From the NCBI GenBank assembly GCA_025617745.1, contig CM046856.1:44011049-44075048 (forward strand): a stretch of DNA of 64,000 nucleotides. The letters are read 5' to 3'. Positions 20,300 to 59,440 of this stretch are shown here, one piece after another. Position 1 is the first letter of the stretch; each line of letters begins with the position of its first letter. A program made the position numbers and the translations under genes. Origin of the DNA: Heliocidaris erythrogramma. Its lineage: Eukaryota > Echinodermata > Echinoidea > Camarodonta > Echinometridae. The notes beneath the pieces were generated by a model that saw only the letters and a program-made list of their open reading frames with translations, was not told the origin of the DNA and did not search any database.

Positions 20300-21572
20300 C
20301 TACTTATCTCCTTCTTCACTGCTTTCTTTCTTTTTATCTCTATTTTTCTTTTTGCCTTTTCTCTTTTTCTTTCCATCTTTCTCTTCACTGCTTCTTTTCT
20401 CTTCACTACTTCTTTTCTCTTTACTATTTCTTTTCTCTCTACTACCACTTTCCCCCTCGCCACTGATTTCGTTTCCACCTAATTCGTTACTTTCCTCTTC
20501 CTGAATGCTGTATATAGCCTGGGCATACGGCTTGCAGATTTCATTTTCGGTATCTAACTGCGGGGCTTGTCCGCTTCCAAAACCAAAATTGAATACCGCC
20601 TCGGCATCTCCAGTGGATATCCGGAAAAGGGAAACCGAGATGTAATCCGGATCTTTGTAACGAAGGAACGGTGCACAGCGTTGAGAAGAAACCGGATCAA
20701 ACAAACCGGTATGAATTACATTATCTTCAACCGCAAACCAATAGTAGTTCGGATCGTCCGTGGATACCAGCCCGGCGTTTGAAACCGACGCCACGGGTAT
20801 ATTGCCTCTTCGGATATCACTTCTTGTGTTTCCCATTGCTCCATAAACTGAATATAAACAGGATATTACATGAATACTTCAATTCAATGGGCTTTACAAA
20901 TTTTAAAGACATGATAGGAATGTCCGGCTGTTTTATTCTGTTTGAGATGGATTGTTTCTCACGTCACAATGTCAGAGAAAATATTAATAACTTCGCACAC
21001 TCTAAAAAGTCAAATGTTAAATATACATTTAAAAGGTTGGAGGAGTGACAACATTTTCAAAATGGTAAATGAACACTTTTAACATGCTGCATAGAGCCTT
21101 TAAACTATTAGATCCAGCATGTTAAAAGTGTTAATTTACCATTTTAAAAATGTTGTCACTCCTCCAACCTTTTACATGTAGATTTAACATTTGAGTTTTT
21201 AGAGTGCAGGGTTCCTAATAAATGGAAATCTGCTCTAACAGGATTTAAACGGTAACTGGGGATAATTTTCACATCATCACAGTAGTTAGATCTCGGCATT
21301 CATTCTTAAATATCTGAACATTTGACTCCACAAATTATTCTCAAATCTCTCACTTTTTATTAAATGTCTAGATGTGAAATTCTGTACTGTAGTTGAAAAT
21401 TGTTACGTCACGGTTTATTAACAAAAATAAACGGTCTTACCTATTTCATACACTTCCCCTCTTTGTTGTCCCGATGTTGACAATACGACCTTCCATGGTT
21501 TCTTAGTGACAAGTTGTACAGCATAGAAATAGGGGGAGGGAGCTTCATCGGTGTAAGAGCCGGCAGCTGGAA
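20300..21572 (-). CDS. Gene B FAMeT domain 12 and charged C-terminal tail (exons 32-33, residues ~1879-2104)
   Basis: Exon 32 (21572-21441) gives YFYAVQLVTKKPWKVVLSTS and VYEI. Exon 33 (20847-20300) gives NTRSDIRRGNIPVAS, NYYWFAVEDNVIHTGLFD and APFLRYKDPDYISVSLF, then diverges. The last ~68 residues are a repetitive Glu/Lys/Arg/Ser tail (SSEEKRSSEEKDGKKKRKGK) encoded by a purine-rich tract. Length variation there is likely. It ends at the stop codon at 20302-20300. Confidence 0.87.
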
Positions 21573-24500
21573 CTAATTTTGTTGTAAATTAAAGAATAGT
21601 GGACGAGTTCTTACAACGATATATGATTAAGTTCATGGAACGCGTATAAAAGGAGCAGCCTTTACAAATGTAATCGGTGAAAAGGAACTTCCTTACATTC
21701 AATGTCTTGTATAATGGAATGAATTGGATGAAACTAACAAAATGAGTTGAGTCGCCAGACAGACAAAACAAGAATTGAACTAATTTCCAGACGTCACAAA
21801 TATCTTTCAAATCAAACGGGCTACATCACATCTTAGGCTAGTAACTTCTTGTTTCTCTCAGAGATAATTGTATTTTGGATCCATTCCATTCTGATATTTG
21901 ATATGTATGTCAGTAAAGGTGGATTAATCTGAAGAGTCTATATTACTTGCGAATATTTCAGGAATCTACGAATACACATGTACCATTTTGACATTTAATT
22001 TTGGATCACGTACGCTAATCTTTAGTTATCAATACAAGAATTTTTTTACTTGAAAAAAAAAAATATCAATCACATTTCTAACAGTCATTTCAAATTGTTA
22101 CAATGTTGTTTATGATCAAACATACTCAGTGCTGATGTTACCTGTAGAGTAAGTGAAGTGGGATGAACTCTTCAAACTAAATCCGGCATAGCTGACCGAT
22201 AGAGGTTCGGGATCCGTCCATTCCAACAGCGGTTGGGTTACTTGCTCATCATGGACCCGGATAGTCCCGTCATATACCGATATCAAGAAGCTCCTTGTTA
22301 AATTATAGAAAAACAATTTTGATTTCTAATACCAGATTTTGTAGAAACCTTTTTGTTAATAATAATAATAATAATAATAAACAAGCATTTGTCAAGCGCC
22401 ATCAATCTAGTAAACTATTCCGAGGCGCTGTATATTATTACCCCGGTCATTGGATTCTGGCACGCCCGCACACGGTGTATGCACATTCTCCACTCCCTGG
22501 GGAGCATTCCAGCCAGTCGCACATGCTAAGCAAAGGACATTACCTTTCGCCATCCTACCGGGTACCCATTTAACACCAGATGAAGCATATGCGATGGTAA
22601 AATGCCCCCAATGTTGTTTGATTTTAGGCCCTTCTTTCATTACACTATATATTTTCACTTGTAGGAAACATTTACAAATGAGATCATACGAATCGCTTTT
22701 GTAGTCGTTGCCTATTTCATCAAGATATGTGTTTTGACATTTGTTTGTCTTGACTTGTTTGCGACCGATATATATGTCTGGAACCATTTTAATCGGCGAA
22801 ATTTCATCCCCTTATCAACACGGGGTAATGGAAGACATGATTATGAATATTTATTACAAATCTAAACATGACCCCAAAATAAATAATGCCACTTGCGATG
22901 TTACAATAAGATATATCTCATGATAAGGTGTTTCACTGCCGTCAATGAAAGTGAGTTGCAATGAGTCTGAAGTATAGGTAAACTAATCACTGAAAATTCT
23001 AGGAAAACGGAAATTAGTTTAAACGCTCTAAACGCGGTAAAAAACCACATTTCCATTGGAAGCAGCAAAGGCACACGGGCAAATTTGCCATAGAGAGCCG
23101 ACACCTCTTGCCCAAATATCAACTTTCCATTTTCTAAATTTTGCCACCTCGCGAAGAAATCGAGCAAAAATGACACTTTATTATGATAAACCATGTTATT
23201 TCGTCAATAAAATACATTTACAGAAGATAGAAAACTTCAAATTTAGGAGTAGTACTGCCCGAATATCGATATTTTCTTTAACTTTCGCCGGGCTGCAGCC
23301 CCTACCGCCCCTATCGCCCCAGGCCCCAGCACCTACGCCTAGGGCCTCACTCCTCCTTGAAATAAGCTTCAGAGCACGTCCTGCATCGTGCTGTAAATTG
23401 GTATTAACATCGTATAAGCGGACGAGCGGAACGATTGTGACATACCTCTCTTCCTCTGGCACTAAAAATCCACCGTCCTTGTGCTCACTAACAAGAGCTG
23501 CACACGAACTGCATCTACGTAGCGACACGTCGGTGTTCCCGTCACCGCTGAATACTGCATTATAAGTCATTACATAACAACATTTAATTGAGGCAAGTGA
23601 CTTTGTACCATCGAAAGCTTTCAACTTTCATTTTATTTATTTCATCTTTGATAATATAACAAATAATAAAAATAGGTATATAAAAGTGAATTGCATACGA
23701 AAAAGAAGAAAGAAAAACAACGCACATATTATGGAAGAACAGCTACAAAGAAAGAACAATTACTGATTACGTAAACTACGAACACTATAAACCAAGGACG
23801 ATAATCAAGATATGAAGTGGTTTCTATGATTAACTCACAGTTGAATTAGAAATAAGCTATACGTCACAGAAAACAAATCAAAATACTTACATTTTACAAT
23901 AAATAAAATGGGCAGGGATAAAAATGGCAGAGATGAATGTGTTTTAATTTGTTGTGAACCCTTCTCCAACAGTAATTGAACATACCTTCTGATATTCGAG
24001 TTGCATAATAGGAGTATTAAATGACAAAAGATGTTTTCGATTATTCGTAATGAGGCCAGTAAATGGTTGTTAGATAATGTTACATAATCGCACGTCATGA
24101 AGCCATATCAATCATGTCAATATGAAGACATGCAGATGAAGATAAAATACAAATATGAATGGGTCTGCAGCATGTGGTGCAGCTATCCAGATACATCATG
24201 GCGGGTTGTGTTTAGAGACGATTCTGCTACCTCATTGTTTAGCAATGTTCTGGACAGTTGAGCTGTCCAGAAATACTTCGATTTTAGCCCTAACAATATT
24301 GTATTTTCTCAATGTGTGTGTTGGAGGAGGGGGCAATTTAAGTATGCTGGATCTACCTGTGAGGGGGTGACTTTTCATCACAAAAAGGAGGGGGATACAG
24401 GGGCGGATACAGGATTTTGAAATTTAAAGGGGCACAGTTATTAAAAATTTTGACACGCCAACAAAAATGTGGGATTTTGTGCGTTTTTACTCCAATTTCT

Positions 24501-27500
24501 TTCCTGTGCTAACTCTGACAAATAAGCTCAAAATGGTCCCTATGGCCCCCTCTGTATCAACCTCTTGGATCTACTAGCATTTTACTCACCAACTTCATAC
24601 ATTTCAACTTGTTGGCTTTCACCAGCCGATAAGGCGATCGATATAGCACCCTCTGTCTTGACGCTAAACTCGATGTACTTGCCAAAGTAGTTTTCATGAA
24701 GAGGATGGAAACTGTACTCAAACTTATCCTCCAGGGACGACTGCTCATAAATGTGGGCGTGAAATACATCTACGTCGTGAGTCGATTTGAGATGACCTTT
24801 GAAATTAATAGAAATGTTTAAGGGGTTTTAAAAGTTTGAATGATCTTAAAAGAACTGCCTGTGGGCAAATATAAAGAAGGAATTACCCTACATTAAAGGG
24901 GAATGGAAGGCAACAGACATTAGCGGACAATCATGTAGATAATAGTCAGCCTGTTAAATATTTTAAAATTACTTTTTTTATTATTTAAGAAGAAGAACAA
25001 TGTCTCAAAAAGTTGCAGTTCCTTGCTTTACATTATCCCATGGGGGCTGCCATTTTCTTTAAAAAGTAATGTTAGAGCAGTGCTATTTCTAGGTACGATG
25101 ACACACATGATCACCTGTGGAATGCATGAAACTGGATTTCATCATAATAGACCATTTTTGCAGTCATGTACATTCAAATAAAGGGATTTTTTTATCCTGT
25201 CATATAACCTAATTGTGTCAAGATATTTGGTTCAGCTCTTTCATAAGTGAAGCAGTTTGTTTTTTTGTTAAGCAGGATTTGCATAGACAAGTTGTTGATT
25301 GGTCAGACAAAGGTTTGTCAATTATTCAGAGAAGTGACAAAGACCTACATACAACTGTTCCATACAAAATCAACTGTACGAGAGATGGGCTACCAAGATG
25401 GCTGCCATTTTGCATTGGTGGATTTGGTTCTACAATAGTTATTTATTATGCAAGACCATATCCATTGTGCACAAGTAAATGGACATGTACGACAATGAAA
25501 TCACAGTTATCAAAATGGCAGCCCCCGTGAGGGAATAACGATCAAGGAATCTGCCAACATTAGAGAGACTGATCTCCTTACTGAGCAATCAAATAGAAGT
25601 ATTTTCAAGATATTTTGAACAGTCAGGCTGACAACTTTCCACATGATTATCAGCTAATTTTTTATTGAGTTTCATTCTCCTTCAATATCCTCAAGACATT
25701 GAAGAGGTTCGTCTGATATGTGGAGTTGATTATTAAAAAACAAATTTCTTGTCTAAAAATCAATGGATTGGTGGTGTAACTAGGTAATGTGTTTCTTTTT
25801 ATCCCCTAGATTATACATTGATGATTGATGAAAACGCCAAGATGACACCTGTAGAATCAGCAAGCTAGTAGCTTCTCCATCAGCTGTCGCAGTGACAGAA
25901 ATATGAAAAATTATATAGGTCCTTGAAAGTGTAATTTCATGAATTGCCATTGATTAGCTCTCTTGGATTTAATAACGTCTCTCTCACATTAGCCTGAACA
26001 TAACTTTGGTAGCTGTCAACATATAGTGATACAGTTTCTCACCAGTTGCTGAACTTTAGTAGTAATATTTATAGAACATCCAGTCATAATATGTAATACT
26101 TTCAGCGAAATTTTCAGTGATACAGTTTCTCACCGGTTGCTGAACTGTAGTAGTAATATTTATAGAACATCCAGTCATATGTCACTCTTCCGTCTTCACC
26201 CGACACAAACCAGATGTACCTCGCACCGATCGGCTTCTCTAAATTGGCAACCATGAATGGTTCGCTATCTTCAGCTCCGACTTCTATGATACTACCATCG
26301 ACAGAGACCCAGAACGTAGCGTTGCGATCCCTTGATAGCTGACCTGCATCGGCACTCACAACCTCCACATTGCTGCGAGAGACAGATGATTTCTTGTTGT
26401 TGTCGACCCCCAACCCTGTAGCATGAAACAAAGCGTAAAGATGCTTTCTTTTATTGGTATACCTCAGCTTGATTTTGTAGATATTGTCGTAGAAATTTAT
26501 ATGTGATGTATTACCTCGGAAAGTGTAAAAGCCAAAAAACAATTTTACAGCAAAAGTTGAAAAAAATACCGACCGGATATCCTCCCTCCATTTGAAGGGC
26601 CAGTAAAGAAGGAATTTGGAGTGGAACTACAACTTCGGCAGTCCAAGTACAGTCTATCTATTTGAGTTCAGTAGCTCCCTCCCCAGTCCGGGAGAATACA
26701 GCACCCCCCTTATTAATTTTCTGGGAACGCCACCGATACTGACAATACTCACGGATCTGTACAACGTCAACTGCATCAAAACTGGAAGTCTGATCAGAGA
26801 GGGCAATGAGGGCGTTCTGTTCGGCAGCCACACTGAACATGAATTTCATCTCAGACTGATCACGTGACACTGTGTAGCTTTTGGGATAGCGAAGGTTGCT
26901 GTGCACTTGTCCAGTCTTGAACATGGATATCAAGGTAGTTCCTGTCAAGGTACAAATGCTGAGGATCTGACTTAGGTTATACATCGGTTAGGCGTACTTG
27001 CATGGTTCTAGGTGATGTTTGGAACATTACCAAGTTCGGTTACGGTTAATAGATATCCGTCGACGTTTGGAACACCACAACATTTGTCGATGTACTCACT
27101 TTCGAAAAGAAGAATACTGAATCCTTAAAATTCAGAATGGTTTGAATCAAGTCAATTAGAGTGATTATGAAATCATTGAAACTTACAGGATAAAGACAAA
27201 TAAAGTTGGTTCTTTCCAAAATAAAGTTGGTTCTTTCCAAAATATTTCTATATATTTTCATCCCCGTCGTGCTCCAGCAACATTCTGTAGGCCTATTAGA
27301 CGTAATGTACGTTTCAACACATTTGGCAATTTTCTAAATTATCAAATGATTTGTGCTCTTCCCAATTATTAATATTTTTACCACACCTGAGTAGAAGATA
27401 AACCGATATACTGTCCACTCTCCTGTCGAACCTCCAAGCGTTCCAAATCCTGCCCAACCAATTTTCAGTGGATCGGCGTCTTCATAGTCCAAGATCACTG

Positions 27501-36428: not shown

Positions 36429-36467
<39 letters not shown>

Positions 36468-37374: not shown

Positions 37375-37412
<38 letters not shown>

Positions 37413-39069
37413 GAATGGATCGTTGTAAGCTTTATTCAAAGCTTGATAAAGAAGACATAGTTCCGCGATGGACTGTTAAGTATTCGAGAAAGAGAGAGAA
37501 GAGGTAATTTTTTAAAAGAAAAGAGAATCAAAGTATTTAAAGAAAAAAGGGGTATTCGACATCATTATTGTTGGATAAATATACACAAATTCAAGCAACC
37601 TACCCTTCTGGCAGAAGTGGCCGGGTGACCTTCGAATGTGTTGGTTCGGTCGCAAGTGCTGGTGGTTCTGGTTCTTTCTCGGCGACTGTTGAAGGCTTGT
37701 CAGTGACCATAACTCTATCGTCCCGTCCTTGTAAAGAGATTTAAGGTGAAAAGTTAACATATTTCTAGTAAGTAGCAGTGGCATAGAGTGGGCCCTGTCA
37801 TTTAGGGGACACTGGCATCATGTAGGCCTAGGTGAATTAACAACCCAGGGTGTTGGAGGGGCTCCTATCATCTTCTCTCCCTTTTGTTCGTTCTCTGTTT
37901 TTTCTCTCTTTTTTCGCCTTTAAGTAACTATGCCACGAACGTAGGACCAAGAGATTCTACTTGGTAAATGTTTGAAAGAAAATTTGCACATTTCGTACTA
38001 AAATATAAGTTCAGTACAATTAATCACCTTATGAGGAAATTGTTCTTTGAGGCAGAAGGAATAAAAAGGTCTAATATTTCGAAAACGGATAAGTAATACA
38101 ATAAAAGCTGCTTTAGAAACCACTTGTATAGAAAGATCACCCGTTTATAAACACCACATTTAATGTTTCCCTCGAAGCGTATCTATCATTGAAATCTGTA
38201 CATCGCTAACCTGCAGATAAAAGACTACCTGCTCATAAAGACCACATTTCTTGTCTTCCTTGAGCGGTCTTTATATACAGGTTTCATTGTACTTACCTTC
38301 TTCTCCTATGTATTTCAGACCGAAGAAGGTCCAGAGATCAATGCCGGTGGTCGCTCGCTGGAGACCAATATACTTCAGACTGTCGCGCTCGACGTCGAAG
38401 AGATAAAGCAGGGGAGTGTCCTCACCGCTGATTCCGAAGTAGAGGGACGAATCGACGAGCTTTACAAATAAATAGGCTCGGTCACCCAGATTAAGACGAT
38501 TACCAGAGTAAGAAGCAATGGCCACGCCATTGTAAGCGACATCAATTCGGCTGGTACCAACACTGTCACTGTTTGTGAAAGCTTTGATAGAATGAAAAGG
38601 GAAATTACGCAATATGTACTGTTAACAGATATTTATTTGATATTTATTCATTTATTTATTTCTGATATTTAGACAGGGGGACTCATTATCATCAATAATG
38701 GATGTTCGGGGGTGGGGGATCCAGGATTATCCGAAAGAGAGAAGGGTGATTTTTTTCCCCTCACAGTAATTCTTTTCCTAGGAATATGATTTCAGAAATC
38801 TTACTGGTGATCTTCAGTGCAGTTTTTAACCCCTGAAATTTCTGGCTGCCCTTCAGATTATCCGAAAGGTGGGCCGCCAACCTACTTTACCATTGTAAAT
38901 GTATAATGCTGGTTTTCATGCCCTTTCCCCAATAGTGGGGTAACGGCCCCCTGGCCACCTCGATCTACATATGATTTTCCTTAATCACTCTTCGTCTATT
39001 TATACCCGTTTATAGTACGTCGTAGTTGAATCTACTAAAACACCCCTCCCCCCCCCCCCCAAAAAAAAA

Positions 39070-39100
<31 letters not shown>

Positions 39101-48242: not shown

Positions 48243-48289
<47 letters not shown>

Positions 48290-51200: not shown

Positions 51201-54200
51201 AAAGAGAGGGACGACGAGAGGAGGGAGGTAGAGAGAGGAGAGAGGGAGGGGGATGACGAGAGGAGGGAAAGAGAGGGATGACGAGAGGAAGAAAAGAGGG
51301 GGGTGACGAGAGGAGGAAAAGAGAAGGGTGACGAGAGGAGGGAGTGAGAGGGGTGACGAGAGGAGGAAAAGAGAAGGGTGATGAGAGGAGAAATAGAGAG
51401 AGGGGTGGCGAGAGCGGGTGGGGAAGAAAGGGGTTGGGAGAGGAGGGAGAGCGGTGACCAGAGGAGGAATAGAGAGGGGTGCCGAGAGGAGGAAAAGAGG
51501 GGAAAGATAGAGAGAAGGCGTAGGGAATGAGAGAGTGAACGGGGTGGCGAGAGGAGGGAGTGAAAGGAGGTGCGAGGGGAGGAGAGAGAGAGAGAGAGGG
51601 GACGAGAGGAGGGAGTGAAAGGAGGTGCGAGAGGAGGAAAAGAGAGGGGTGATGAGAGAGAGAGAGAGAGAGAGAGGGGACGAGAGGAGGGAAAGAGAGT
51701 GGTGGCGAAAGGAGGAAAAGAGAAGGGTGATGAGAGGAGGGAGGTAGAGGGGTGACGAGAGGAGGAAAAGAGAGGGAAGACGTGGGGAGGGAGGTAGGTA
51801 GAGGGGTGACCAGAGGAGGAATAGAGAGGGGTGCCGAGAGGAGGAAAAGAGAGGGGTGATGAGAGGAGAGAGGAGAGAGAGAGAGGGGGGACGAGAGGAG
51901 GGAAAGAGAGTGGTGGCGAAAGGAGGAAAAGAGAAGGGTGATGAGAGGAGGGAGGTAGAGGGGTGACCAGAGGAGGATAAGAGAGGGATGACGAGAGTGA
52001 GGGGGAAATAGTGGGGGGGGGGGGGCGAGACAATAAGCATGACAATGTTTGACTTACCGATCACATCGGGAATCATATCTGGGAAATACCAGTCCGCGGT
52101 ATCGGAGATGAACGAAGAGTAACCGAGATGCTGGAGAAATGTCGCATTCACTCCAGGCAACTCCAAGAAAGGTTCCATGTACTTCTCACCAATCTGAAGA
52201 TTTGAATTCTCCACGTTGATGTAGAAGTCTGCAGGGTCGCCGCTTTCCATCGATTGCCTCGGCGAGTACGTGGTCGAGACCGCGGTTTGGTCGTTGATAC
52301 GGATCTCGGCAGAGATGTCATATTTGTTATCCATGTGAGTGAGGACTGTTCATTATAATAATCGAGGAAAGATAGATGTATATTATCTGAAGGAAATTGA
52401 GCGTGGGACCAGCCTCTGATGGGCACTGGTGTCATGGGGGAGGGCCGTCGGTGAATGAAATCGAGTGGGATGATATTGCGGAAGTGTTACAATCATCTTC
52501 TTTTGACTTTGCCTTAAAATCACTCAGGAGTTAAGGTAAGGAATGTGTAGTTGACTTAGTGTAAAAGGTTAGCCAACATGAGTCAATAATGACAATTAAA
52601 GATGATATATAAAATGGTAAACTTTTAATAACTCATTCAGCTTTTCATAATCATTTGTTAAAATGGCTGTAGAAAGTTTCTCAGCGTGCACTTTACAATT
52701 TGCACTAGTTCTACCAAGTTACATACTTACCAATGTAATAGCAATTCTGAGACTTTTCTTCTTCTGCTAATTCGAGTGCAGTTGTACCCGTCCATTTAAC
52801 AGAGAAGTTGATCTCAAAGTTTCCCTGTGGAAGCTTCAGAAATGGATACAGAATACAAGCATCTCCTGTTGTTGTAGACGTAAATGTACCTGGAAGAACC
52901 AAAATGGTATTGTTGCATGAAATTAATTTCTTTCGAAATTTCCCCATGTCGTCTTCAAGTCTTTCAGGAACAAGGGAGATCAGCTTGTTTGGAATTATTT
53001 AATAAATTCGGATTCAAGTGAATTTACATGTAAGTGTGTTCCTTCTCATAACAACATGTGGTATTGAAACAATTGGTGTGAGATTGTCAGTTTAATTTTT
53101 AAATTTGATATGTTGGCCCAAGTTCTAAAAATCATCATGTTGACAATTATTCTACTCACCCAAGCTTACAAATGTAAGTTTAAAGTGATACTAAGTTTAC
53201 TGGGTTAGAAACAATGAAGTGTTCACGAAAAACAACAATGGAAAGGATATTGCCAAACATAATATATAGTGTAATGATGAGATAGTAAATTATATCACCT
53301 GGAAACTTGGAAAACTTCCACCAGCCCCCGACGCCGGCTGTAGTGAAACCGACATGGTTGACTTCAAGTGGGTTTCGGTCCATCCAAACTAAGAAGGGAT
53401 CCAAAGAGTTGTCCGAACCGACTGCCACGATTCTCTGGTAGAAGAGTATCCAAAACACACGTGGCTCGGTTCCACTTAATCTACCCGGTTTGTTTTCACT
53501 TGCAATCGTATTGCACTGGTGGCAGCGGCGAATAACTGTCCTTGAATTGAAGTCGGCTCCGATTTCTGAAATATTTATAGAAAGTGGGTATAACCGGCAT
53601 CCATTTTGATTTGTGAATGTTATAAACATCAGCTAAATGCAAAGTATATATACATGTACTTATAAATTGATTCATGAAAGAAACATACAGTAAGCCGATT
53701 GAACAGTGATGACATAATTCAGCTATGTGATAGGGCAAATCTTTTACTCATTTAATTCAAAGGATTATGACATTTTGTTTAGCAGCTGCTATCAAGTTTG
53801 TGCAAAACTGTAAACGTTGTCTGTGATGAGCAATGTTATTATTTCAACTGCATTTAGCCTATATCAGGGTCCATGAAATATGATATCCAAAAACAGAATT
53901 ATAGTCTACAAACACAAGATCAGACCCGTAAAATATATCTGGTAAATAATGATCAAAGGGAATTTACTCTATTTTAAATCTAAAATTTTCATGTACTAGT
54001 ATCTATTGTTGTTTTTGTTGTCATAATTATTTTCAGCCATTATCAATCTCATAATCATCCTCTCTTCAATCTTTGGACACTAATTTATTCTCACCGATTT
54101 CATACATAGAATCCAGAACCATGTTCTGCCTGGAGAGGCCGATCAGAGCTCCATGCTCCGCCATTACTTCAAACTTGATAAACTTGACGTCATTGTTCAG

Positions 54201-57200
54201 ACGTGGGAGCACCCAGTTGTAGCTCAGATCATTCCCGGTCTCAAATGATTGACAGTTGTCGATCAGATCGAGTGCGCCAATCACGAGACCTGTAAGAAAG
54301 TAGAGAATTAATATAGCCTTAAACCAGCGAGCAGATACGAGCAGAAAATTCATGTGTTTGTAATAATAATAAAAGATAAAAGATTTCGCCCTAAGTCGCA
54401 GTTAGAGTTATTAGGGCGAAATCTTTTATCTCATTCTTTTGTTACGTTTCGCCCTAACCCACACTCGTTTCGCCCGAACGTTGAGTTTCTATTGTGACGG
54501 AATAAACCTATTGTTACGGTTTCGCCTTAAGTCGCTGTTAGGTAAATAATGATAACAATAATAATAATAACAATAATAATGACGATAATACATGTAATAC
54601 TACTACTGATAAAATATAATTAAGAAAGATAATAAGAAAGATGGAACTAATAATGATAATAATAATAATAATAATAATGAATATTTATAAAGCGCCACAT
54701 CCACTAAAATAAAGTGCTCAAGGTGCTGGAAAATAGAAATTACAGTTACACAGGTAGGATAGAGATCACATAGAAAACATAATTGCAAATTGTCCAAACA
54801 CTACAGCACATGTTGCAAATACATAATAATAATGATAAAAATATACAAAGGTATGTAACATGGGAAGAAATGGCCAGGAAACCAGCATACATTAATCAAA
54901 TGCTTTTTGGAACAGATGTGTTTTCAGGGAAGTCTTAAATGAATTTACAGTGGATATATCTCTAAGTGGCTGTGGCAGTTGGTTCCAGAGAGTGGATCCC
55001 GCATGTGAAAAAGATCGATCCCCCCATAATGTTTTCGTTTTAGGTACAACAAGTAGGGAAGAGTCAGAGGACCTTAGTTGTCTACGGGGATTGTAACGAT
55101 TAAACAAAACAGAGTTATACTCAAGAGCCGTACCATGAAGACAATGAAATACAAGCAAAAGAATCTTAAATATACTACGAAACTTTACAGGAAGCCAATG
55201 AAGCGATTTAAGGATATGTGTTATATGATTAAACTTGTTTGATAAGGTGACAACTCGAGTAGCAGTATTTTGAAACATTTGTAAATGAGAAACTTCAGTT
55301 TGAGGTAAACGGTACATGAGTGAATTACAAAAGTCTAAGCGAGATGAAATAAGAGCATGTACAATCTTCAGAACGTGTGAGGTATTTTCGGATCATTCCC
55401 AAGTTTCTTAGCTGGTAACGTACAGATTTGCAGGTATTGGATACATGGTTTGACATTGACATGGCACAATCAAAAGTTACTCCTAAATTTCTACAAGATT
55501 TACTAGCATAGATAGATACAACAATTATTGATAGAAATACAATGTGTACATTGACATTATAATATAGGATTTCCCGGCCAATTTCGTAAAATTATCATTC
55601 ATATCATTTTCAGTGCATTCAAATTCGTGTGTCCGAAGCGGTGGAGTGACTTTGGTCAAACGATTTCATATTTCGTGCTTTCAAATTCGTTTTTAGGCAC
55701 CAAAATTAATGGTTACCAATTTCGTTTTGGGGCATGAATTTCCACATTTCAGCAATCAAATTAGTGCGATGGGTGTGGTAAGCACCTACAGTCACTTTCA
55801 ATTTCGTTTGCGAGCAATTGGTTTCCTCAATTGAGCATTCATTTTCGTAATACAAATACGTGTAATCTAGAGTGATCTGTCCATTTAATCATTAAAGGTG
55901 ACTTGAAATTCTTTTTGTTATCACTTATTTACTCGTCACAATATTCATCATTTTGATCTCAACATAATTTAACCAACATTTTGTGTTATCTTCAATAATC
56001 AATTATCGCATGCATATTATGATCATCATATTGTTTTAATCATCTTAATTTTACATCAGTGTTTTTATATTATCATGATCATTATGTTTTTGTCATTATA
56101 ATTTTAGACATTTGTTTACATCATGATCATCACATTGTTTTGGATATTTATATTTTACGTCTATAGTTTTTTTTCATTATAAATGTATTGTTTTTGTAAT
56201 CGCCAGTTTTTATTGTCACCATAATCATCTTAATGTTATGTGATGTTCTCTGTTACATCTTTATTTCCATAATCATCGAATATTTTGTGTTCTTCATTTT
56301 ACATCTGTACTTTCATCATCAGGCGTGACCAACGTACAGTACATTGTTCTAGAGTTGATATTCAGCCATCTATGGGTTTGCGTGCTAAGCACCTTCCCGT
56401 GTAGGCCTGGGTATGACGATACCATTGGTCACACTTCTCTTGGGTGATGATATCGACGTTGTTGCGTCCAACTTGCTGGATGAGGTTGCATCGCCACTGT
56501 TGCAAATTCATCTCGGCCATGCGTGCTGCTTCACGGTCGCCGAACCTCCGCTGCCATCGTGGACGTGCGAGGTCTCGTTTGACAGCAGCTTTGAAGGCGC
56601 TGTGTGCCATCTCCGTGGGATTGAGAAATGGTGAATATGGCGGGAGTGTCTTGAGGTGAATTCTCGGGTGGACTCCATCGGCATGTTCTGGCAGTTGCGA
56701 TCTTATATGTGGGCGGGCGTTGTCATAGATGATGAAGACATCCGTGTCAGGAGGAAAGAATTGGTTACACTGGCGTGCCGCCTCCAGGAGGAACGCTTCA
56801 AAGCTCTCCCTTGTGACGGCATCACAGGACATGATGGTATGGTGCACCAAGCCCACTGCATCAGAGACTGCAAAAGTAAAGTTGCAGTTGCGTCCGCGTT
56901 GGCCATGAACTACCATCCTTGCTGGTTCTCAACGTGGAGCTCTCCCCTGCGATCTTCGGGTCCAGATGTTATATCCACATTCATCCACGAAGACGCAGTG
57001 GGCAAGATTGCCAATCTGTAGGAACCAATCCGCATACTCAGCTCGTTGGTCCAGGACACGGGGAACATTTCGAGCATCAGGGACGTCCTCCACCAACTTG
57101 AGCGTTATGAGCATGCCATCTAGCGCCCTGGCAATGGTTGATGTGCTCACCGCGGGTTTATCTGGGAGATATTCAGCCAGATCATCTGTTGTAGTGTCAG

Positions 57201-59440
57201 AGGATTTGTATCGATCAAATGTGCAAATCTTGCCTTCATTTCGTCGTCCATTTTGGTATTCTTTGCCCCACCCCTCGGTAGCTTGTTGCGTCTCCCCTCC
57301 CTCACTGCACTTAGTCTCTCTGGGCTTCGAAGGCTTCGATTAGCCCACCCTATCCTCGTTAATACTGTTATTATGAACTTGTATGCCTATATACGAATTT
57401 GAATATTCGGAATCAGCTGGTGACATGTTGCAGACGAAATTGAATAACCACATTGCCGAAAATGTATGCTCATTCAGTGAATTATAATGCACGACTACGA
57501 AATCGGTTGCCACACTACTTCATTTGAATGACTAAAAACGATTTTGAATGACGATATTTCGTTACATGACCGTATTGGATGAAAACGAATGCTTCTAATA
57601 TGAAATTGAATGGCAAAACCAAACTGACCGGGAAAACCTATATTAAAGGGAGTGGCAAGTCGTAATCCATGGGCCTGACCATTTGGCCTGACTCGGGGAA
57701 ATTCGGATACAATCAGGTCCAATCGTGCGCTACCGAAGGAATGTTATTGCCGGATTCCTCGCGCGATCGTTAACTCGAATCCCTCCGTACGCAACCGACC
57801 AATAAGTTTCAAATACTGGAATAAAGAACGCGCGATCTTGTTTACTCAAATTTGGGTCAATGTGCGAACTTTTATTAGCTGCGCACGATAAATTGAAGTA
57901 GCTTTGAACTTTGATCTAGAGAAAGGAGCTGCCAACTGTAAAAGCGCTCATAGATTGCGACTTGTCGCTCCCTTTAATAGTAATAAAAATGATGATAATT
58001 GATAAATATTATATTATTTCCATTATTAATTTTATCATTATTATTACAGTATTACAATAAACTTGACGTCATTGTTTTTCAGATTCAGATTCAGATTTTT
58101 ATTGCTGTTTTCAATCATATTAACATAATTTACATAATACTGTAGTGCATAACATAATATGAATACAATTATAACACAATATAACAATGATGTTTTTCCA
58201 TAGATATGACACAATATCAAATATCAATAAGTAAAAAAAAAAAAAATAATGCACAAATATTGACTTATATTAAGTGGTGTTGAAAACAGTTGGACGTGTT
58301 TAAGAGCAAAGCTTAATTGTATATTACATGTCCAGAAACTTATATAACTTAATCACGAGTGGGTCGTTCAATAATATTAAATTCATAAAGCATCATTACG
58401 AGAAGCGAAATTATTGATAAGTGAGAATTGATAAGTGAGTTGAGGTAGTAAGACTATTGCCTCAACCCACAAGAAATACTACGTGTGAAAGTACAGTGGA
58501 AGTGGAAGACGGTGTGGAAACAAAAAAAGAATGCAAAGAAGGAGGGTGGAGGAAGGAGGAAAATGAAATATAATGAGAGTGTCTGTGTGTGAGAAGAAGG
58601 AAGAGAGAAGGGAGGAAAAAGAAGGGGTAAATATGGAGTAAAACAGAGAAGAGAGGGGAGATGGAGAGAGAAAGAGAAAAAAAGAAATAGAGAGGTGGGT
58701 CCTGCTCGCTGTCCTCACCCCATTCATTGGGAGCACAACATCATGCAGCTTCGGTTAGTAGTTCCTTCCATTTTTAGGTCACTAAAAATAATTTTCATTT
58801 ATGGCCTAAAACGAAGTATTATGTTGTGAAGCATAATATACACTTTCCTCTGTTTTGCCATTAAAGAAGTAGATTCTAGGATAATGTCAATCAACATATC
58901 GTTCATTTTGTACATGTATATTACATGTATATTTAGGATTTGAAAGCATGCAGTTCATTAAAAAAATCAAAAGATCAATAATTTTTACAATTAATCTTCC
59001 ATTCACTTAATCTAACGAATAATCACTTCATCAATCCATTATTTTTCAATAATTATTAATTTGTACATTTGTAATGTATTGATGAACGTCAGAAGAATGC
59101 TTACACTTAATTGAATAGCTCTGTTTTTGCAAGCAGATAAGCACAAATAAACAATCAACCAAACAATCAATCAAACAGCAAATCCACCTCCCAATCCATC
59201 ATTGATCAAGCAATCAGTCACAGTGATTATTAACCTAATCCATATTTCTTCAATGAGATAATCACTCGATTCTAATACATGTAAAAATCCCATGTAATTA
59301 GTAGCTGATCGTGAGAAGCGAAGTTATGTGTATTCGCGCGTAATAATAACAGCTAAATTTCGTTAACAGCATCATGAAAACTTACCAGCGTAGACAGAAC
59401 TTGGGAGAAATATGCCTATGAAGAGAATAATGAATGCCAT
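20300..59440 (-). CDS. Gene B: secreted protein with about twelve tandem FAMeT (Methyltransf_FA) domains
   Basis: Thirty-three coding exons join in one frame (6315 nt, 2104 aa). In transcript order they are 59440-59386, 54289-54095, 53565-53299, 52889-52731, 52345-52058, 49422-49375, 48726-48565, 47390-47267, 45654-45497, 44512-44324, 43830-43658, 42535-42433, 39926-39765, 38581-38297, 37727-37604, 36002-35884, 34792-34625, 33452-33295, 32836-32686, 31892-31698, 30780-30472, 30144-29977, 29580-29263, 28949-28824, 28416-28243, 27704-27387, 26941-26753, 26415-26134, 24796-24590, 23554-23446, 22293-22142, 21572-21441, 20847-20300. Exon 1 encodes a signal peptide (MAFIILFIGIFLPSSVYA). Each ~155-residue repeat matches the FAMeT pattern: F-V-A half, Y-E-I, S-V-I-R-R, F-W, I-x-V-G, P-F-L-x-W, V-G-F-x-T, G-x-W. 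No membrane segment was seen. The domain name comes from a crustacean enzyme claim; tandem secreted copies suggest binding or structural use, which is inference. Confidence 0.85.
20998..21206. mobile_element. Long hairpin MITE in gene B intron 32
   Basis: The arms are near-perfect reverse complements over about 90 bp, with a loop of about 25 bp centred near 21100. Landmarks are 'ggttggaggagtgacaacat' against 'atgttgtcactcctccaacc', with ends CACTCTAAAAA and TTTTTAGAGTG. If transcribed in the pre-mRNA it would form a strong hairpin. Confidence 0.85.
22142..24796 (-). CDS. Gene B FAMeT domain 11 (exons 29-31, residues ~1723-1879)
   Basis: Exon 29 (24796-24590) gives KYIEFSVKTEGAISIALSAG and MYEV. 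Exon 30 (23554-23446) gives VSLRRCSSCAALVSE (CX2C) and ends in phase 2 inside EEER. Exon 31 (22293-22142) gives SFLISVYDGTIRVHDEQVTQ, PLLEWTDPEPLSVSYAGFS. The phase-2 split just before the FW strand matches the one in domain 3. Confidence 0.87.
22350..22600 (+). repeat. (AAT)n tract with adjoining possible SINE/LINE tail
   Basis: (AAT)8 at 22357-22380 is followed by 'caagcgccatcaatctag' and 'ttccgaggcgctgtatatta'. AAGCGC/GGCGCT motifs next to trinucleotide runs also appear at the 3' ends of the LINE fragments near 33820 and 54690, so this may be another CR1/L2-type tail. It is non-coding. Confidence 0.4.
24893..25687. mobile_element. ~0.8 kb inverted-repeat element in gene B intron 28
   Basis: The left arm starts TTAAAGGGGAATGGAAGG and the right arm ends TCATTCTCCTTCAATA. 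About 80 bp at each end pair imperfectly (aatcatgtagataatagtcagcctgtt against aacagtcaggctgacaactttccacatgatt). Inner blocks (tgggggctgccatttt against aaaatggcagcccc) also pair. Only a TTAA-like border is present at the left. It is non-coding. Confidence 0.7.
26025..26178 (-). repeat. 63-bp tandem duplication of an exon end and donor
   Basis: 26116-26178 (the end of gene B exon 28 and its donor GTGAGA) is repeated at 26025-26087 with about two differences. The copy retains the GTGAG donor and the coding sense, so it is a potential cryptic donor. It lacks an acceptor of its own. Confidence 0.85.
26134..26941 (-). CDS. Gene B FAMeT domain 10 (exons 27-28, residues ~1566-1723)
   Basis: Exon 27 (26941-26753) gives MKFMFSVAAEQNALIALSDQ and VVQI. 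Exon 28 (26415-26134) gives RDRNATFWVSVDGSIIEVGA, EPFMVANLEKPIGARYIWFV and YDWMFYKYYYYS. There is no Cys pair. The end of exon 28 and its donor are duplicated 91 bp downstream in the intron. Confidence 0.87.
27203..27243. repeat. Tandem duplication of ~20 bp
   Basis: 'ataaagttggttctttccaa' occurs twice in direct succession in a gene B intron. No functional role is evident. Confidence 0.85.
27387..28416 (-). CDS. Gene B FAMeT domain 9 (exons 25-26, residues ~1402-1566)
   Basis: Exon 25 (28416-28243) gives ARFEFSVKAPSDAVVAMSEN and SYKL. Exon 26 (27704-27387) gives MRCISLYYCSA (CX5C), KFFVELIHCGRTNKLLIRLG, DPLKIGWAGFGTLGGSTGEW. This copy is close to the family pattern in both halves. Extra Cys (IHCG) occurs in the FW strand region. 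Confidence 0.88.
28824..28949 (-). CDS. Gene B exon 24: Pro/Ala/Ser-rich linker (residues ~1360-1402)
   Basis: The acceptor is TTTTTACAAG| and the donor CCAG|GTTAGT, phase 1-1, 126 nt. It encodes a disordered acidic stretch including EPISPLPLENNFEDDPNQPS and SAASAAPSTLKEEP. It lies between domains 8 and 9. Confidence 0.8.
29263..30144 (-). CDS. Gene B FAMeT domain 8 (exons 22-23, residues ~1198-1360)
   Basis: Exon 22 (30144-29977) gives EARIDFSIQAPCPAEVVFTA and NYTL; its donor GTATTA is weak. Exon 23 (29580-29263) gives VTKCVSRVCTR (CX4C), FFYIDIVSKAGTLSARLGKA, DPIHVTYAGFRTTQCLGVWT. The layout is close to domain 7, which suggests these two neighbours arose by a recent tandem duplication. Confidence 0.85.
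30472..31892 (-). CDS. Gene B FAMeT domain 7 (exons 20-21, residues ~1030-1198)
   Basis: Exon 20 (31892-31698) gives SRFEFAVTSQSAVILSISAV and RYEI. Exon 21 (30780-30472) gives KLSLHQCVASNC (CX4C), TTFFLELSTIDGGALFVRLG, RPLRVAFVGFRTPYSGASWV. The second half is one unsplit exon. All junctions are phase 1. Confidence 0.88.
31479..31615. mobile_element. Small inverted-repeat element in gene B intron 19
   Basis: 'accacagtcacacca' pairs with 'tggtgtgattgtggt'. The interior has tandem 'gaccgacgcca' units and a gtcggt/accgac pairing. It is higher in GC than the flanks and resembles a MITE. Confidence 0.5.
32686..34792 (-). CDS. Gene B FAMeT domain 6 (exons 17-19, residues ~871-1030)
   Basis: Exon 17 (34792-34625) gives GQFSVKAEKNVAVALISHNG and YYEI with donor ATAC|GTTAGT. 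Exon 18 (33452-33295) gives TELKRCVESVC (a CX4C pair) and ends in phase 0 after LVR. Exon 19 (32836-32686) gives RLGKGDVLDIESTMLLSYED, LKIEYVGIRTYDVWGDWTV. The intron between exons 17 and 18 contains a CR1-like LINE tail. Confidence 0.85.
33582..33905 (+). pseudogene. CR1/L2-like LINE 3' end
   Basis: Plus-strand 33582-33707 reads GERAFAHAGPSLWNSLPQGL and then RDLTSSELFKSNIKTYLF before a stop. This is the well-known C-terminus of CR1/L2-type LINE reverse transcriptases (...LWNSLP..LR....F...LKT.LF). A 3' UTR with 'gcactatataaa' and an (ATT)n tail at about 33872-33892 follow. It is heavily 5'-truncated and lies in a gene B intron on the opposite strand. Confidence 0.75.
35884..37727 (-). CDS. 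Gene B exons 15-16: Pro/Thr/Ser-rich linker (residues ~790-871)
   Basis: Exon 15 (37727-37604) encodes a stretch with EKEPEPPALATEPTHSK and ends in phase 2 (GG|GTAGGT). Exon 16 (36002-35884) opens in phase 2 and encodes SSSGNGQSAGSLDGSTGDEN and DLEPPKYDPRVEMS. It is disordered, likely O-glycosylated if secreted (inference), and splits the protein into a 5-domain and a 7-domain part. The intron between the two exons carries three tRNA genes on the opposite strand. Confidence 0.7.
36263..36333 (+). tRNA. tRNA-Arg(UCU), copy 1
   Basis: 71 nt. The acceptor stem GTCTCCG/CGGAGAC pairs perfectly. The D arm is GTCT...AGGC and the T arm CCGGG-TTCGATT-CCCGG. The anticodon loop GTTCTAA gives anticodon TCT. 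A box (TGGTCTAGTGG) and B box (GGTTCGATTCC) are present, and a T6 terminator starts two bases after the gene. No intron. This copy has C27 (CTGGC), which mispairs with A43; the other copies have T27. G at position 32 is unusual. Confidence 0.85.
36423..36662. repeat. (TA)n tract and GAAAACGTGAA foldback between tRNA copies 1 and 2
   Basis: (TA)n runs at about 36432-36465. From 36524, 'ttttcgggggtcctccccct' and 'cgtcagggaaaacgtgaa' are matched by the inverted 'ttcacgttttccctgacg' and 'agggggaggacacccgaaaa' ending near 36666. The ttcacgttttccctgacgaag block occurs again in between. It looks like a foldback insertion. Confidence 0.75.
36748..36818 (+). tRNA. tRNA-Arg(UCU), copy 2
   Basis: Identical to copy 1 except T27, which restores the first pair of the anticodon stem (TTGGC/GCCAA). 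Pol III A and B boxes and a T6 terminator are intact. It lies antisense within the gene B intron between exons 15 and 16. Confidence 0.88.
37150..37220 (+). tRNA. tRNA-Arg(UCU), copy 3
   Basis: Identical in sequence to copy 2, with the same T6 terminator and near-identical flanks. It starts 402 bp after copy 2. Confidence 0.88.
38297..39926 (-). CDS. Gene B FAMeT domain 5 (exons 13-14, residues ~641-790)
   Basis: Exon 13 (39926-39765) gives FMFLFSAMVTDVTYLYFS and GYKL. Exon 14 (38581-38297) gives RAYLFVKLVDSSLYFGISGE, LKYIGLQRATTGIDLWTFF. Phase is 1-1 throughout. There is no Cys pair. The exon 13 donor (CTTA|GTAAGA) splits the codon after Y-K-L, the same place as in the other domains. Confidence 0.85.
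39052..39180 (+). repeat. Poly-C, poly-A and (AAT)n/(AATT)n low-complexity tract
   Basis: A C13 run, an A10 run, then ATA/AAT and TTAA repeats lie in the gene B intron between exons 13 and 14. A second tract of 34 A plus (TA)n lies further along at 39527-39572, between the same exons. Nothing coding. Confidence 0.85.
40018..40530 (+). repeat. (AAT)n arrays alternating with a 70-bp unit
   Basis: (AAT/GAT)n arrays at 40024-40200 and 40326-40440 are each followed by a similar 70-bp unit containing 'tagcctcatcagtataatac' and 'ttgaaatcattattacccc'. A third, more divergent unit follows another array at 42030-42250. The LINE at 40531 begins immediately after unit 2, so the LINE apparently inserted into this array. 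Confidence 0.75.
40531..41985 (+). pseudogene. 5'-truncated L1/Tx1-like LINE
   Basis: 40531-40805 reads through LLFKFIWNGNPDKISRKTLI and LKIAWVKRLLDESNVGQW, the connector region of an L1/Tx1-type LINE protein. Later frames give SCSFC and EHLFWDCP, a CCHC-like knuckle, but frameshifts and stops intervene. It ends with AATAAA and an A-rich tail (about 41953-41984). It is non-functional, on the strand opposite to gene B. Confidence 0.75.
42433..44512 (-). CDS. Gene B FAMeT domain 4 (exons 10-12, residues ~486-641)
   Basis: Exon 10 (44512-44324) contains FEFTFDVQAEENAFVSLS and SYTF. Exon 11 (43830-43658) contains DSVIVAGRVGEDPILE and ends in phase 0. Exon 12 (42535-42433) gives RFINFGNLDGDATQWRFYNV. 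Exon 10 has no internal Met, so it is easily missed when only ATG-started frames are considered. The phase-0 split falls just after the PFLE-like motif, a different place from domain 3. Confidence 0.82.
43073..43596. mobile_element. TTAA-bordered MITE in gene B intron 11
   Basis: Left TTAAAGGGGGAATTAACCCTT pairs with right GAAGGGCTAATTCCCTGTTAA, and TTAA is present at both borders. Inner blocks (gtcaaagaataaggaagtta against taactttcttattctttgca) also pair. It is of the same general type as 16347-16713 but its sequence differs. Confidence 0.75.
45221..45367. mobile_element. MITE with GGCCCCGTCTTAT ends
   Basis: 147 bp. The left end GGCCCCGTCTTATCAAGAGT and right end CTTTATAAGACGGGGCCC are inverted. 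Both arms carry GTTGCGA...ATTCGAATCGATCGCAAC, itself palindromic. A degenerate relative lies at 2268-2320 ('cgtcttagagttgcgattgc'). Confidence 0.8.
45497..48726 (-). CDS. Gene B FAMeT domain 3 (exons 7-9, residues ~338-486)
   Basis: Exon 7 (48726-48565) gives YELQFKLKAEGRARIILTD and GYNI. The second half is split by a phase-2 intron into exon 8 (47390-47267, ending DRPFYI plus two bases of R) and exon 9 (45654-45497, SQEKLSVGPEGRTPLLTVSD, YVRFQTEHGEKGRWTFYDV). There is no Cys pair. The intron between exons 8 and 9 contains a LINE fragment. Confidence 0.85.
46170..47232 (-). pseudogene. LINE reverse-transcriptase C-terminal fragment
   Basis: Minus-strand 47232-46801 reads RILLLQKKALSTICNVSWRS, FMYQLNNNALPLVFDIMFHK and FTGPKCWNDLDNTIKTAPSL, the C-terminal thumb and tail typical of non-LTR reverse transcriptases (L2/CR1 or related clade). 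About 600 bp of AT-rich 3' sequence follows toward 46170. It lies within the gene B intron between exons 8 and 9, in the same orientation as gene B. Confidence 0.7.
48241..48503 (+). repeat. Poly-C/(CA)n followed by TCCGAGGAC repeat, copy 2
   Basis: A run of about 18 C and (CA)n at 48241-48300 precede 48310-48503, the second copy of the repeat at 8151-8344. It lies in gene B's intron just before exon 7 on the coding strand's downstream side. The longest frames here are not coding. Confidence 0.8.
49010..49292 (+). repeat. Cluster of poly-C tracts
   Basis: Four C runs of 11-22 bases lie within 280 bp. The intervening sequence is similar to ordinary intron sequence. Such G4-prone runs often cause sequencing length errors, so base counts here should be treated with caution. 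Confidence 0.85.
49375..49422 (-). CDS. Gene B exon 6: 16-residue linker
   Basis: A 48-nt exon lies between acceptor TTTGTGCAG|GT and donor CGAG|GTAAGG. It encodes YTDVLDETEDCIRYR, with phase 1 at both ends. It separates domains 2 and 3. Its size and symmetry make it a good candidate for optional splicing. Confidence 0.7.
49628..49895 (+). repeat. Purine-rich GA minisatellite-like tract
   Basis: GAGAGAGAAAGGGGTGG-type units, related to the main minisatellite at 50985-52012, are scattered here. Open frames on the minus strand are Ser/Pro/Leu-rich artefacts. Confidence 0.8.
50062..50217 (-). repeat. Partial inverted copy of the 651/5976 dispersed repeat
   Basis: 'gaaaagcagtcggggcgtga', 'actttccgcctgaaaaggtg', 'gtcaaagctttcgcgcttcg' and a poly-C run are the reverse complement of roughly 780-970 and 6050-6230. 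Confidence 0.65.
50266..50989. mobile_element. Long imperfect palindrome (foldback element)
   Basis: The arms span about 50330-50640 and 50640-50989. Paired landmarks are 'tacgtctttcgcccgtcgtc' against 'gacgagagacgaaagacgtg', 'gcgcagcagacgacagttgt' against 'cactgtcgtctaatgcgc', and 'atggactgcagcggtaaa' against 'tttaccgctgcagtccat'. TTAAAGGGAAATCC at 50266 may be the true left end. The right end runs into the minisatellite. GC is higher than surrounding DNA. Confidence 0.8.
50985..52012 (+). repeat. ~25-bp purine-rich minisatellite (about 1 kb)
   Basis: About forty variants of the unit 'gacgagaggaggaaaagagag' + 'gggt' lie head to tail. Some units carry insertions (ggaggtagagagagga) and short (GA)n expansions. 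Higher-order blocks repeat: 51561-51780 and 51840-52000 share the same unit order. The array gives long Ser/Pro/Leu-rich frames on the minus strand that read into gene B exon 5, but it is intronic. Confidence 0.9.
52058..52889 (-). CDS. Gene B FAMeT domain 2 (exons 4-5, residues ~173-322)
   Basis: Exon 4 (52889-52731) gives QGNFEINFSVKWTGTTALEL and CYYI. Exon 5 (52345-52058) gives KYDISAEIRINDQTAV, ADFYINVENSNLQIG, EPFLELPGVNATFLQHLGYS and DWYF. There is no Cys pair. The acceptor of exon 5 (TGAACAG|TCC) is weaker than most but the frame is kept. The spliced open frame runs on into the minisatellite, which is not coding. Confidence 0.8.
53299..54289 (-). CDS. Gene B FAMeT domain 1 (exons 2-3, residues ~19-173)
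   Basis: This is the most canonical copy. Exon 2 (54289-54095) ends with FEVMAEHGALIGLSRQ and MYEI. Exon 3 (53565-53299) carries SRTVIRRCHQC, EPRVFWILFYQRIVAVGSD, PFLVWMDRNPLEVNHVGF and GGWWKF. Both exons are phase 1-1. The CX2C pair after VIRR is absent from the classical family pattern and recurs in other domains of this protein. Confidence 0.88.
54367..54545. repeat. Hairpin with TTTCGCCCTAA repeats
   Basis: 'agataaaagatttcgcccta' is mirrored by 'tagggcgaaatcttttatct' (54373-54431). The unit TTTCGCCCTAA or a near match then recurs at about 54448, 54469 and 54522. An (AAT)n-like tract follows. The TTAGGG inside the inverted unit is by chance and not a telomere array. Confidence 0.65.
54640..55317 (-). 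pseudogene. CR1/L2-like LINE fragment, 3' end
   Basis: Minus-strand 55317-54892 reads LQMFQNTATRVVTLSNKFNH, LHWLPVKFRSIFKILLLVFH, CLHGTALEYNSVLF and STLWNQLPQPLRDISTVNSF, the C-terminal part of a CR1/L2-type reverse transcriptase. A 3' UTR with 'aagcgccaca' and an (ATT)n tail down to about 54640 follows. It is truncated, in gene B intron 1 and sense to gene B. Confidence 0.8.
55567..57638 (-). mobile_element. Tc1/mariner-superfamily DNA transposon (DD36E-type)
   Basis: The terminal sequences AATATAGGATTTCCCGGCCA (55561-55580) and the reverse complement of 57619-57644 match at 22 of 26 positions, with TA at both borders. Between the ends and the transposase, CAAATTCGT/AATTTCGT motifs recur many times on both sides (subterminal repeats). 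Apparent autonomous size is about 2.07 kb. The right end abuts a second, TTAA-flanked element. Confidence 0.8.
56362..57270 (-). pseudogene. Broken DDE transposase of the 55.6-57.6 kb element
   Basis: Minus-strand frame 3 (with 57150 as first base of a codon) reads from about 57270 through DDLAEYLPDKPAVSTSTIAR, HCVFVDECGYNIWTRRSQ, then an in-frame TGA at 56931-56929, then MVVHGQRGRNCNFTFAVSD, VFIIYDNARPH and PPYSPFLNPTEMAHSAFK to a stop at 56362. The likely catalytic residues are D (VDECG), D (YDNARPH) and E (NPTE), with 36 residues between the last two. The fold is that of the IS630/Tc1 DDE_3 family. The N-terminal helix-turn-helix part is degenerate. It is probably inactive because of the stop. 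Confidence 0.8.
57643..57977. mobile_element. TTAA-flanked MITE next to the transposon
   Basis: TTAAAGGGAGTGGCAAGTCG at the left matches the reverse complement of CGACTTGTCGCTCCCTTTAA at the right with about three differences, and TTAA lies at both ends. The interior is non-coding. It has inserted within a few bases of the Tc1/mariner element's right border. Confidence 0.8.
58077..58400 (-). mobile_element. Probable LINE 3' tail
   Basis: Read on the minus strand, AT-rich sequence ends in AATAAAAATCTGAATCTGAATCTGAA. A short (TCTGAA)n tail after an AATAAA-like signal is common in CR1/L2 families. There is no coding part, so the assignment is tentative. Confidence 0.4.
58486..58885 (+). repeat. 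400-bp repeat, copy 1 (block C)
   Basis: 'gaaagtacagtggaagtgga' to 'gattctaggataatgtca' is almost identical to 61903-62305 in direct orientation, with a few small indels. It contains a purine-rich tract and 'tgggtcctgctcgctgtcct'. Minus-strand Ser/Phe/Leu-rich frames here are artefacts of the purine tract. Confidence 0.85.
59386..59440 (-). CDS. Gene B exon 1: signal peptide
   Basis: The ATG has A at -3 and G at +4 (caacATGG). The 18 residues MAFIILFIGIFLPSSVYA have a hydrophobic core and a small residue before the likely cleavage site. The donor CGCTG|GTAAGT gives phase 1. The first domain starts at once in exon 2. Intron 1 is over 5 kb and holds the transposon. No TATA box or promoter element was recognised upstream. 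Confidence 0.85.

Follow-up and report, generated by a model that had tools for sequence, protein, structure and literature searches.

A sea urchin locus encoding a putative secreted protein with about twelve tandem FAMeT modules

What would an animal build from some twelve tandem copies of a domain named after an enzyme? The question is raised by a 64,000-nucleotide stretch of DNA from the sea urchin Heliocidaris erythrogramma (G000:C4:44011049-44075048; hereafter, the window), part of a 1.06 Gb assembly of 26 contigs. A preliminary description had read there, by eye, a gene for a secreted protein of about twelve FAMeT domains, had doubted the methyltransferase name and had argued for a binding, adhesive or matrix role, proposing a profile search, structure prediction and a search for paralogs as checks. 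Here, we confirm that observation as a whole: the minus strand carries a 33-exon chain with one open frame and modules of Pfam family PF12248 (Methyltransf_FA, "FAMeT"). On balance, we favor the reading that a single gene here encodes a large secreted protein that is multivalent and lectin-like, belongs to a matrix or an adhesive, and has about twelve tandem FAMeT modules and a charged tail. Its secretion, ligand, multivalent action and tissue are all things that we infer.

Exon chain and identity of the modules

Iterated profiles, whose seeds were open stretches chosen by eye, located paired half-domain stretches on the minus strand between 54 and 20 kb. A purpose-written spliced-alignment program, combining a FAMeT module profile, generic splice-site weights set by us and codon usage, gave a model running from 59440 to 20300 with 33 exons and twelve two-part modules (Table 1). 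The chain comprises 6345 nucleotides including the stop, is divisible by three with a single stop and encodes 2114 residues (about 230 kDa); the preliminary description had the same number of exons but 2104 residues. When the four linker exons are removed, 29 exons and 1975 residues remain and the frame stays open, so that the frame is independent of the weakest exons. These four linkers, placed by splice and coding scores, are provisional, as is the acceptor of the second part of the module 3 C-half. The linkers are short or, judged by their composition, probably disordered, which agrees with the earlier account. The C-terminal tail is Lys/Glu/Ser-rich (45 of the last 77 residues), much as had been described.

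The modules were assigned with PF12248, using its curated cut-off of 24.2 bits and coverage of both profile halves. Eleven of the twelve spliced modules match, ten of them above the cut-off (28.9 to 95.3 bits), which places them in the family; module 3 lies below it (E 0.0003), and module 5 has no Pfam match at E up to 1, its assignment being inferred from position and exon pattern only. Eleven of the twelve domains first proposed were thus recovered by the profile, and the "12-mer" of that proposal is a single twelve-domain chain rather than an oligomer. For module 1, the exon join is supported because the spliced score exceeds those of its two exon-bearing open stretches taken alone (13.9 and 65.4 bits). 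A second profile, built from 13 domains elsewhere in the genome, gave 11 of the 12 modules a higher score than any of their 200 shuffles, while module 5 reached 1.0 bit and one of its 200 shuffles did better; this profile is only partly independent because the profile used to excise its domains already contained window modules.

The spliced-alignment score was 1103 on the true strand with free ends, including two transposase pieces in intron 1, and 1080 once the start was fixed and intron 1 masked. On the opposite strand of the same stretch it was 55. For 1-20.2 kb the two strands, neither of which held a FAMeT segment, scored 34.5 and 105. Four dinucleotide shuffles scored 4.4 to 9.1, one short or low-scoring profile segment occurring in three of the four (in one case a low-scoring segment of 91 positions). 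Because the alignment profile was trained on this window, the Pfam matches weigh more than these controls. Both agree that chance assembly is unlikely, as the preliminary description held. The frame agreement of the chain, like its GT-AG boundaries, is imposed by the program and is no independent evidence.

As counted from the program's listings, phase 1 accounts for 27 of the 32 introns, phase 2 for three and phase 0 for two, and every one of the 24 half-module openers (12/12 N-half exons and 12/12 first C-half exons) has a phase-1 entry. First exons were sought on both strands of the window by a simple hydrophobicity rule (an ATG, a hydrophobic core and a phase-1 donor). Exon 1 is the sole minus-strand candidate, in keeping with the signal peptide noted earlier, and the plus strand holds one candidate; along the minus strand of the window, the rule detected no further first exon of signal-peptide type, although first exons of other kinds would escape the scan. 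The uniform phase of the half-module openers and the lack of a second such first exon make one gene likelier than several. Because the following exon has an in-frame ATG at 54353 that could give an alternative hydrophobic start directly before module 1, secretion appears likely from either start, while exon 1 itself is not certain.

Several candidate exons were rejected. A first model opened with three pieces farther upstream, of which two were transposase-like and lay in intron 1; the chain was then recomputed with the ATG at 59440 as its start and intron 1 masked. A 9-nucleotide exon (46349-46357, with a variant start at 45654 for 45497-45690) came and went between settings, and further exons, including read-through of a minisatellite, appeared only at some settings; none was accepted.

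Relatives in the genome and other features of the window

The paralog search, made in six frames, returned 44 PF12248 matches genome-wide, with clusters on contigs C21 and C12. Only two exons of the window gene pass E 0.001 in this search, so that six-frame counts of multi-FAMeT genes are lower bounds. Twenty FAMeT loci were examined over 8.7 to 9.9 kb each, a span at whose edges genes may be cut. Fifteen carry one N-half and one C-half, the latter split in two parts in two of them; the rest comprise three loci with a C-half only, one with two C-halves (L019) and one with two modules (L032). The N-half ends at the split point of the window modules in 13 of the 15 loci and runs past it in L028 and L029. 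An EGF-like stretch lies upstream on the same strand in 6 of the 20 loci, each time above the Pfam EGF cut-off.

L032 and the neighboring L031 (C16:40.88-40.90 Mb) seem to be parts of one intron-containing gene with three domains. L001 (G000:C7:20669294-20672668) is an intronless frame of three FAMeT domains followed by a run of A; its modules are each 48 to 61% identical to their counterparts in the C16 gene, and it is apparently an old retrocopy, the version with introns seemingly lying on C16. A second relative on the same chromosome, L007 (G000:C7:20452405-20455668), is broken and carries inserted sequence. L028 and L029 (G000:C1:30.25 and 30.27 Mb) are separated by 13 kb, and their matched half-domains are identical; they are apparently a recent duplication or an assembly duplicate. 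The small contigs C25 and C26 (L009, L010, L014) hold frames that look bacterial by eye and are probably assembly contamination. Contig C24 is mitochondrial: AAA occurs at COI positions where Asn is expected, and its reading frames, named by eye, follow the order ND2, COI, ND4L, COII, ATP6, COIII, ND3, ND4, ND5, ND6 (minus strand) and CYTB, which is the order of sea urchins and in line with an echinoderm, most likely a sea urchin. Contigs C22 to C26 are small and nine of the contigs C1 to C21 measure 37 to 79 Mb, making about 21 chromosomes likely.

Within the window, the modules are mutually 11 to 34% identical. In a tree, modules 6-9 form one cluster (support 98/99), modules 2-5 group less certainly (91/98, with long branches meeting) and the twelve are not a single clade. 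The array looks old, given this divergence and the absence of a common clade, and the identities together with the supported 6-9 cluster led us to reject young tandem duplication as its sole origin.

Table 1. Exons of the FAMeT array gene model, in order of transcription, with the evidence for each
Feature	Coordinates	Strand	Evidence
Exon 1, signal-peptide-like MAFIILFIGIFLPSSVYA, phase-1 donor	59386..59440	-	signal-type first-exon scan
Module 1 N-half	54095..54289	-	spliced model, PF12248 (module 1: 95.3 bits)
Module 1 C-half	53299..53565	-	spliced model, PF12248, six-frame genome search
Module 2 N-half	52731..52889	-	spliced model, PF12248 (module 2: 28.9 bits)
Module 2 C-half, acceptor -0.5	52058..52345	-	spliced model, PF12248
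Provisional linker, 16 codons, skippable	49375..49422	-	splice and coding score only
Module 3 N-half	48565..48726	-	spliced model, PF12248 (module 3: 21.0 bits, below 24.2 cut-off)
Module 3 C-half, first part	47267..47390	-	spliced model, PF12248
Module 3 C-half, second part, acceptor uncertain (-1.6)	45497..45690	-	spliced model
Module 4 N-half	44324..44512	-	spliced model, PF12248 (module 4: 32.6 bits)
Module 4 C-half, first part	43658..43830	-	spliced model, PF12248
Module 4 C-half, second part	42433..42535	-	spliced model, PF12248
Module 5 N-half, inferred, weak donor -1.1	39765..39926	-	position and phase only
Module 5 C-half, inferred, acceptor -0.5	38297..38581	-	window-trained profile, position, phase
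Provisional linker	37604..37727	-	splice and coding score only
Provisional linker	35884..36002	-	splice and coding score only
Module 6 N-half, weak donor -2.5	34625..34792	-	spliced model, PF12248 (module 6: 63.4 bits)
Module 6 C-half, first part	33295..33452	-	spliced model, PF12248
Module 6 C-half, second part	32686..32836	-	spliced model, PF12248
Module 7 N-half	31698..31892	-	spliced model, PF12248 (module 7: 34.2 bits)
Module 7 C-half, acceptor -0.8	30472..30780	-	spliced model, PF12248
Module 8 N-half, weak donor -3.2	29977..30144	-	spliced model, PF12248 (module 8: 40.8 bits)
Module 8 C-half	29263..29580	-	spliced model, PF12248
Provisional linker, 42 codons, skippable	28824..28949	-	seen only after coding score retrained
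Module 9 N-half	28243..28416	-	spliced model, PF12248 (module 9: 54.8 bits)
Module 9 C-half	27387..27704	-	spliced model, PF12248
Module 10 N-half	26753..26941	-	spliced model, PF12248 (module 10: 59.0 bits)
Module 10 C-half	26134..26415	-	spliced model, PF12248
Module 11 N-half	24590..24796	-	spliced model, PF12248 (module 11: 84.9 bits)
Module 11 C-half, first part	23446..23554	-	spliced model, PF12248
Module 11 C-half, second part, acceptor -1.0	22142..22293	-	spliced model, PF12248, six-frame genome search
Module 12 N-half, short; first strand may lie in missed exon	21441..21566	-	spliced model, PF12248 (module 12: 45.6 bits)
Last exon: module 12 C-half, Lys/Glu/Ser-rich tail, stop	20300..20847	-	spliced model

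Other features lie among and beside these exons. Intron 1 holds transposase-like frames on the minus strand (56362-57339), with a DDE_3 match in 56362-56928 and none in 56929-57339. A GA-rich minisatellite (50989-52002, period 25, about 40 copies) lies immediately behind the C-half exon of module 2 and gives rise to long spurious frames. The module 5-6 region contains three tRNA-like copies on the plus strand (36263-36334, 36748-36819 and 37150-37221; 61 to 65 bits), and the open stretches behind the second and third are nearly identical, probably a repeated element. Elsewhere on the plus strand, stretches 4721-5341, 12575-13225 and 13668-14567 share the motif R-[RQ]-[PQ]-T-P-[IM]-x-[IL]-x-[VL]-P-K; they match no Pfam family at E <0.001 and are perhaps repeated exons of another gene.

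Predicted fold and likely function

A paralogous FAMeT domain from the C7 locus is predicted to form an all-beta sandwich (predicted local distance difference test, pLDDT, 88.5) with 11 strands and no helix of four or more residues, which is not the alpha/beta fold of S-adenosylmethionine (AdoMet)-dependent methyltransferases. By structural comparison, the model has the concanavalin-like jelly-roll fold of galectins, and its closest folds are CBM66, galectins and other lectin-like folds, not methyltransferases. In a viral fold library, it had 53 matches at E up to 0.001; most of the best 50 are nameless or of no known function, and three carry LamG or concanavalin-like names. By sequence, no significant match turned up in the PDB (best E 0.29 for the C7 three-domain protein and 1.2 for alignment A3). 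The three-domain model is poor (pLDDT 55.8) and gives no domain-domain geometry; alignments A1, A2 and A4 had misplaced rows and were excluded from folding. By extension from the paralogous domain, each module is most likely a lectin-like beta sandwich. The structure prediction once proposed for the joined protein has thus yielded a lectin-like sandwich for a paralogous domain, not for the window protein itself.

In animals, adhesives, shell-matrix proteins and complement-related proteins repeatedly contain FAMeT domains, labeled as an enzyme that these domains probably are not. Extracellular binding is common to these published settings, hence our reading of a secreted lectin-like matrix or adhesive protein. 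The predicted domain shape is that of a sugar-binding lectin, and a sticky or matrix protein is for this reason more likely than an enzyme, with an adhesive or extracellular-matrix role the likeliest use of the array; the binding, adhesive or matrix role first proposed fits and is still putative. Because each module is most likely lectin-like, the array may work as a multivalent binder, in which numerous weak contacts with glycans or glycoproteins, be they of an extracellular matrix, mucus, a substrate or a microbial surface, would sum to firm attachment or cross-linking. The lectin-like fold and the array of about twelve copies together offer a concrete, testable function. More tentatively, FAMeT may be a misnamed animal lectin-fold module from which echinoderms built a giant multivalent extracellular lectin, with about twelve sites per chain, for adhesion, matrix assembly or microbe capture.

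Several observations weigh against the lectin-like adhesive reading. Concanavalin-like sandwiches also bind non-sugar ligands. The fold was predicted for a paralog rather than for a window module, from an alignment in which 17 of 20 rows span the C-half only, and modules 2 to 5 are strongly diverged. Foldseek TM-scores by query length are modest (0.37 to 0.62 among the 50 matches listed), and unlike proteins are mixed in among these matches, coronavirus spikes standing at ranks 4 and 7. CBM66 and the galectins share the concanavalin-like lectin fold, and the FAMeT model was compared with them by fold only; identity to lectin-like structures is 4 to 16% among the rows listed of the re-examined matches, and none of the twelve modules matches a lectin family of Pfam, galectins included, at E up to 1. 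The main text of PMC7037938, on sea-urchin tube feet, has no mention of FAMeT, farnesoic, methyltransferase or galectin. Cysteine makes up only 1.1% of the window protein (23/2114), whereas passages of the literature describe the sea-star AC1 proteins as rich in cysteine.

The main alternative use is innate recognition, by a pattern-recognition lectin that binds microbes in coelomic fluid; we hold it possible, if rather unlikely. The lectin-like fold of the paralogous domain and the genomic matches, clustered on some chromosomes, would suit it, and, to judge by a paper's title, an oyster haemocyte FAMeT protein reportedly binds microbes. The binding mechanism would nonetheless be that of the adhesive or matrix reading, with the use alone differing, and the EGF neighbors of FAMeT loci point to matrix or adhesive as well.

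It is improbable that the model fuses two or more adjacent genes, the likeliest break then falling between module 5 (38297) and module 6 (34792). This gap of 3.5 kb holds only two of the provisional linkers and the three tRNA-like repeats (36263-37221), and modules 6-9 and modules 2-5 cluster separately in the tree, the latter with the reservation given above. Against a break, module 5 exits and module 6 enters in the same frame with or without the linkers, and the minus strand offers no second first exon of the kind scanned for.

Doubtful, too, is a skeletal or shell-type biomineral matrix protein, whose acidic chain and charged tail would act on calcium carbonate. Passages of PMC6003135 and PMC8194122 link FAMeT domains to molluscan shell matrix or shell repair, and the calculated isoelectric point (pI) is 4.9 for a 34-exon model; the tail, however, is a Lys/Glu mixture with a calculated pI of 9.3.

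A decaying pseudogene is very unlikely. By the generic weights, 3 of 32 donors and 7 of 32 acceptors score below zero, modules 2-5 are diverged, and module 5 is recognized neither by Pfam nor by the 13-domain profile, yet 33 exons are open in one frame over 6.3 kb, though the program considers open chains only. A multi-domain farnesoic acid O-methyltransferase is scarcely credible, with the Pfam family name alone in its favor and, against it, the all-beta prediction for a family member and passages of PMC10015273, which state that methyl transfer by FAMeT was never reliably demonstrated and cite a fly mutant with unchanged hormone levels; the early doubt about the name is supported.

Comparison with known FAMeT proteins

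By Pfam score, crustacean proteins with two PF12248 domains and insect PF12248-DUF3421 proteins belong to the same domain family as the window modules. Arthropod proteins mostly have one or two FAMeT copies and up to four in some flies, according to passages of PMC10015273, whereas the window gene opens with a signal-peptide-like exon and encodes about twelve; in the modules scanned, DUF3421 had no match. It shares the Methyltransf_FA domain with CPAMD8, a member of the alpha-2-macroglobulin (A2M) family (passages of PMC9358689 and PMC9363628), but a scan of the twelve modules and the module 5-6 linkers gave no match to A2M domains.

Within echinoderms, passages of PMC9382459 describe FAMeT domains in six secreted sea-star footprint proteins (Sfp1, 3, 4a, 5, 7, 8), call their role unknown and suggest that the domain's presence in adhesives is possibly sea-star specific. 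Those described combine FAMeT with other domains, EGF, hyalin or WAP among them, and Sfp7 and Sfp8 have two FAMeT domains each, whereas the window protein shows FAMeT only and is cysteine-poor. This sea urchin genome likewise has FAMeT exons beside EGF exons, and the existence of such genes and of a FAMeT array bears on the sea-star-specific suggestion, with adhesive use putative. No description of an array of this size was found in the passages of the FAMeT literature covered, most subscription journals lying outside the search.
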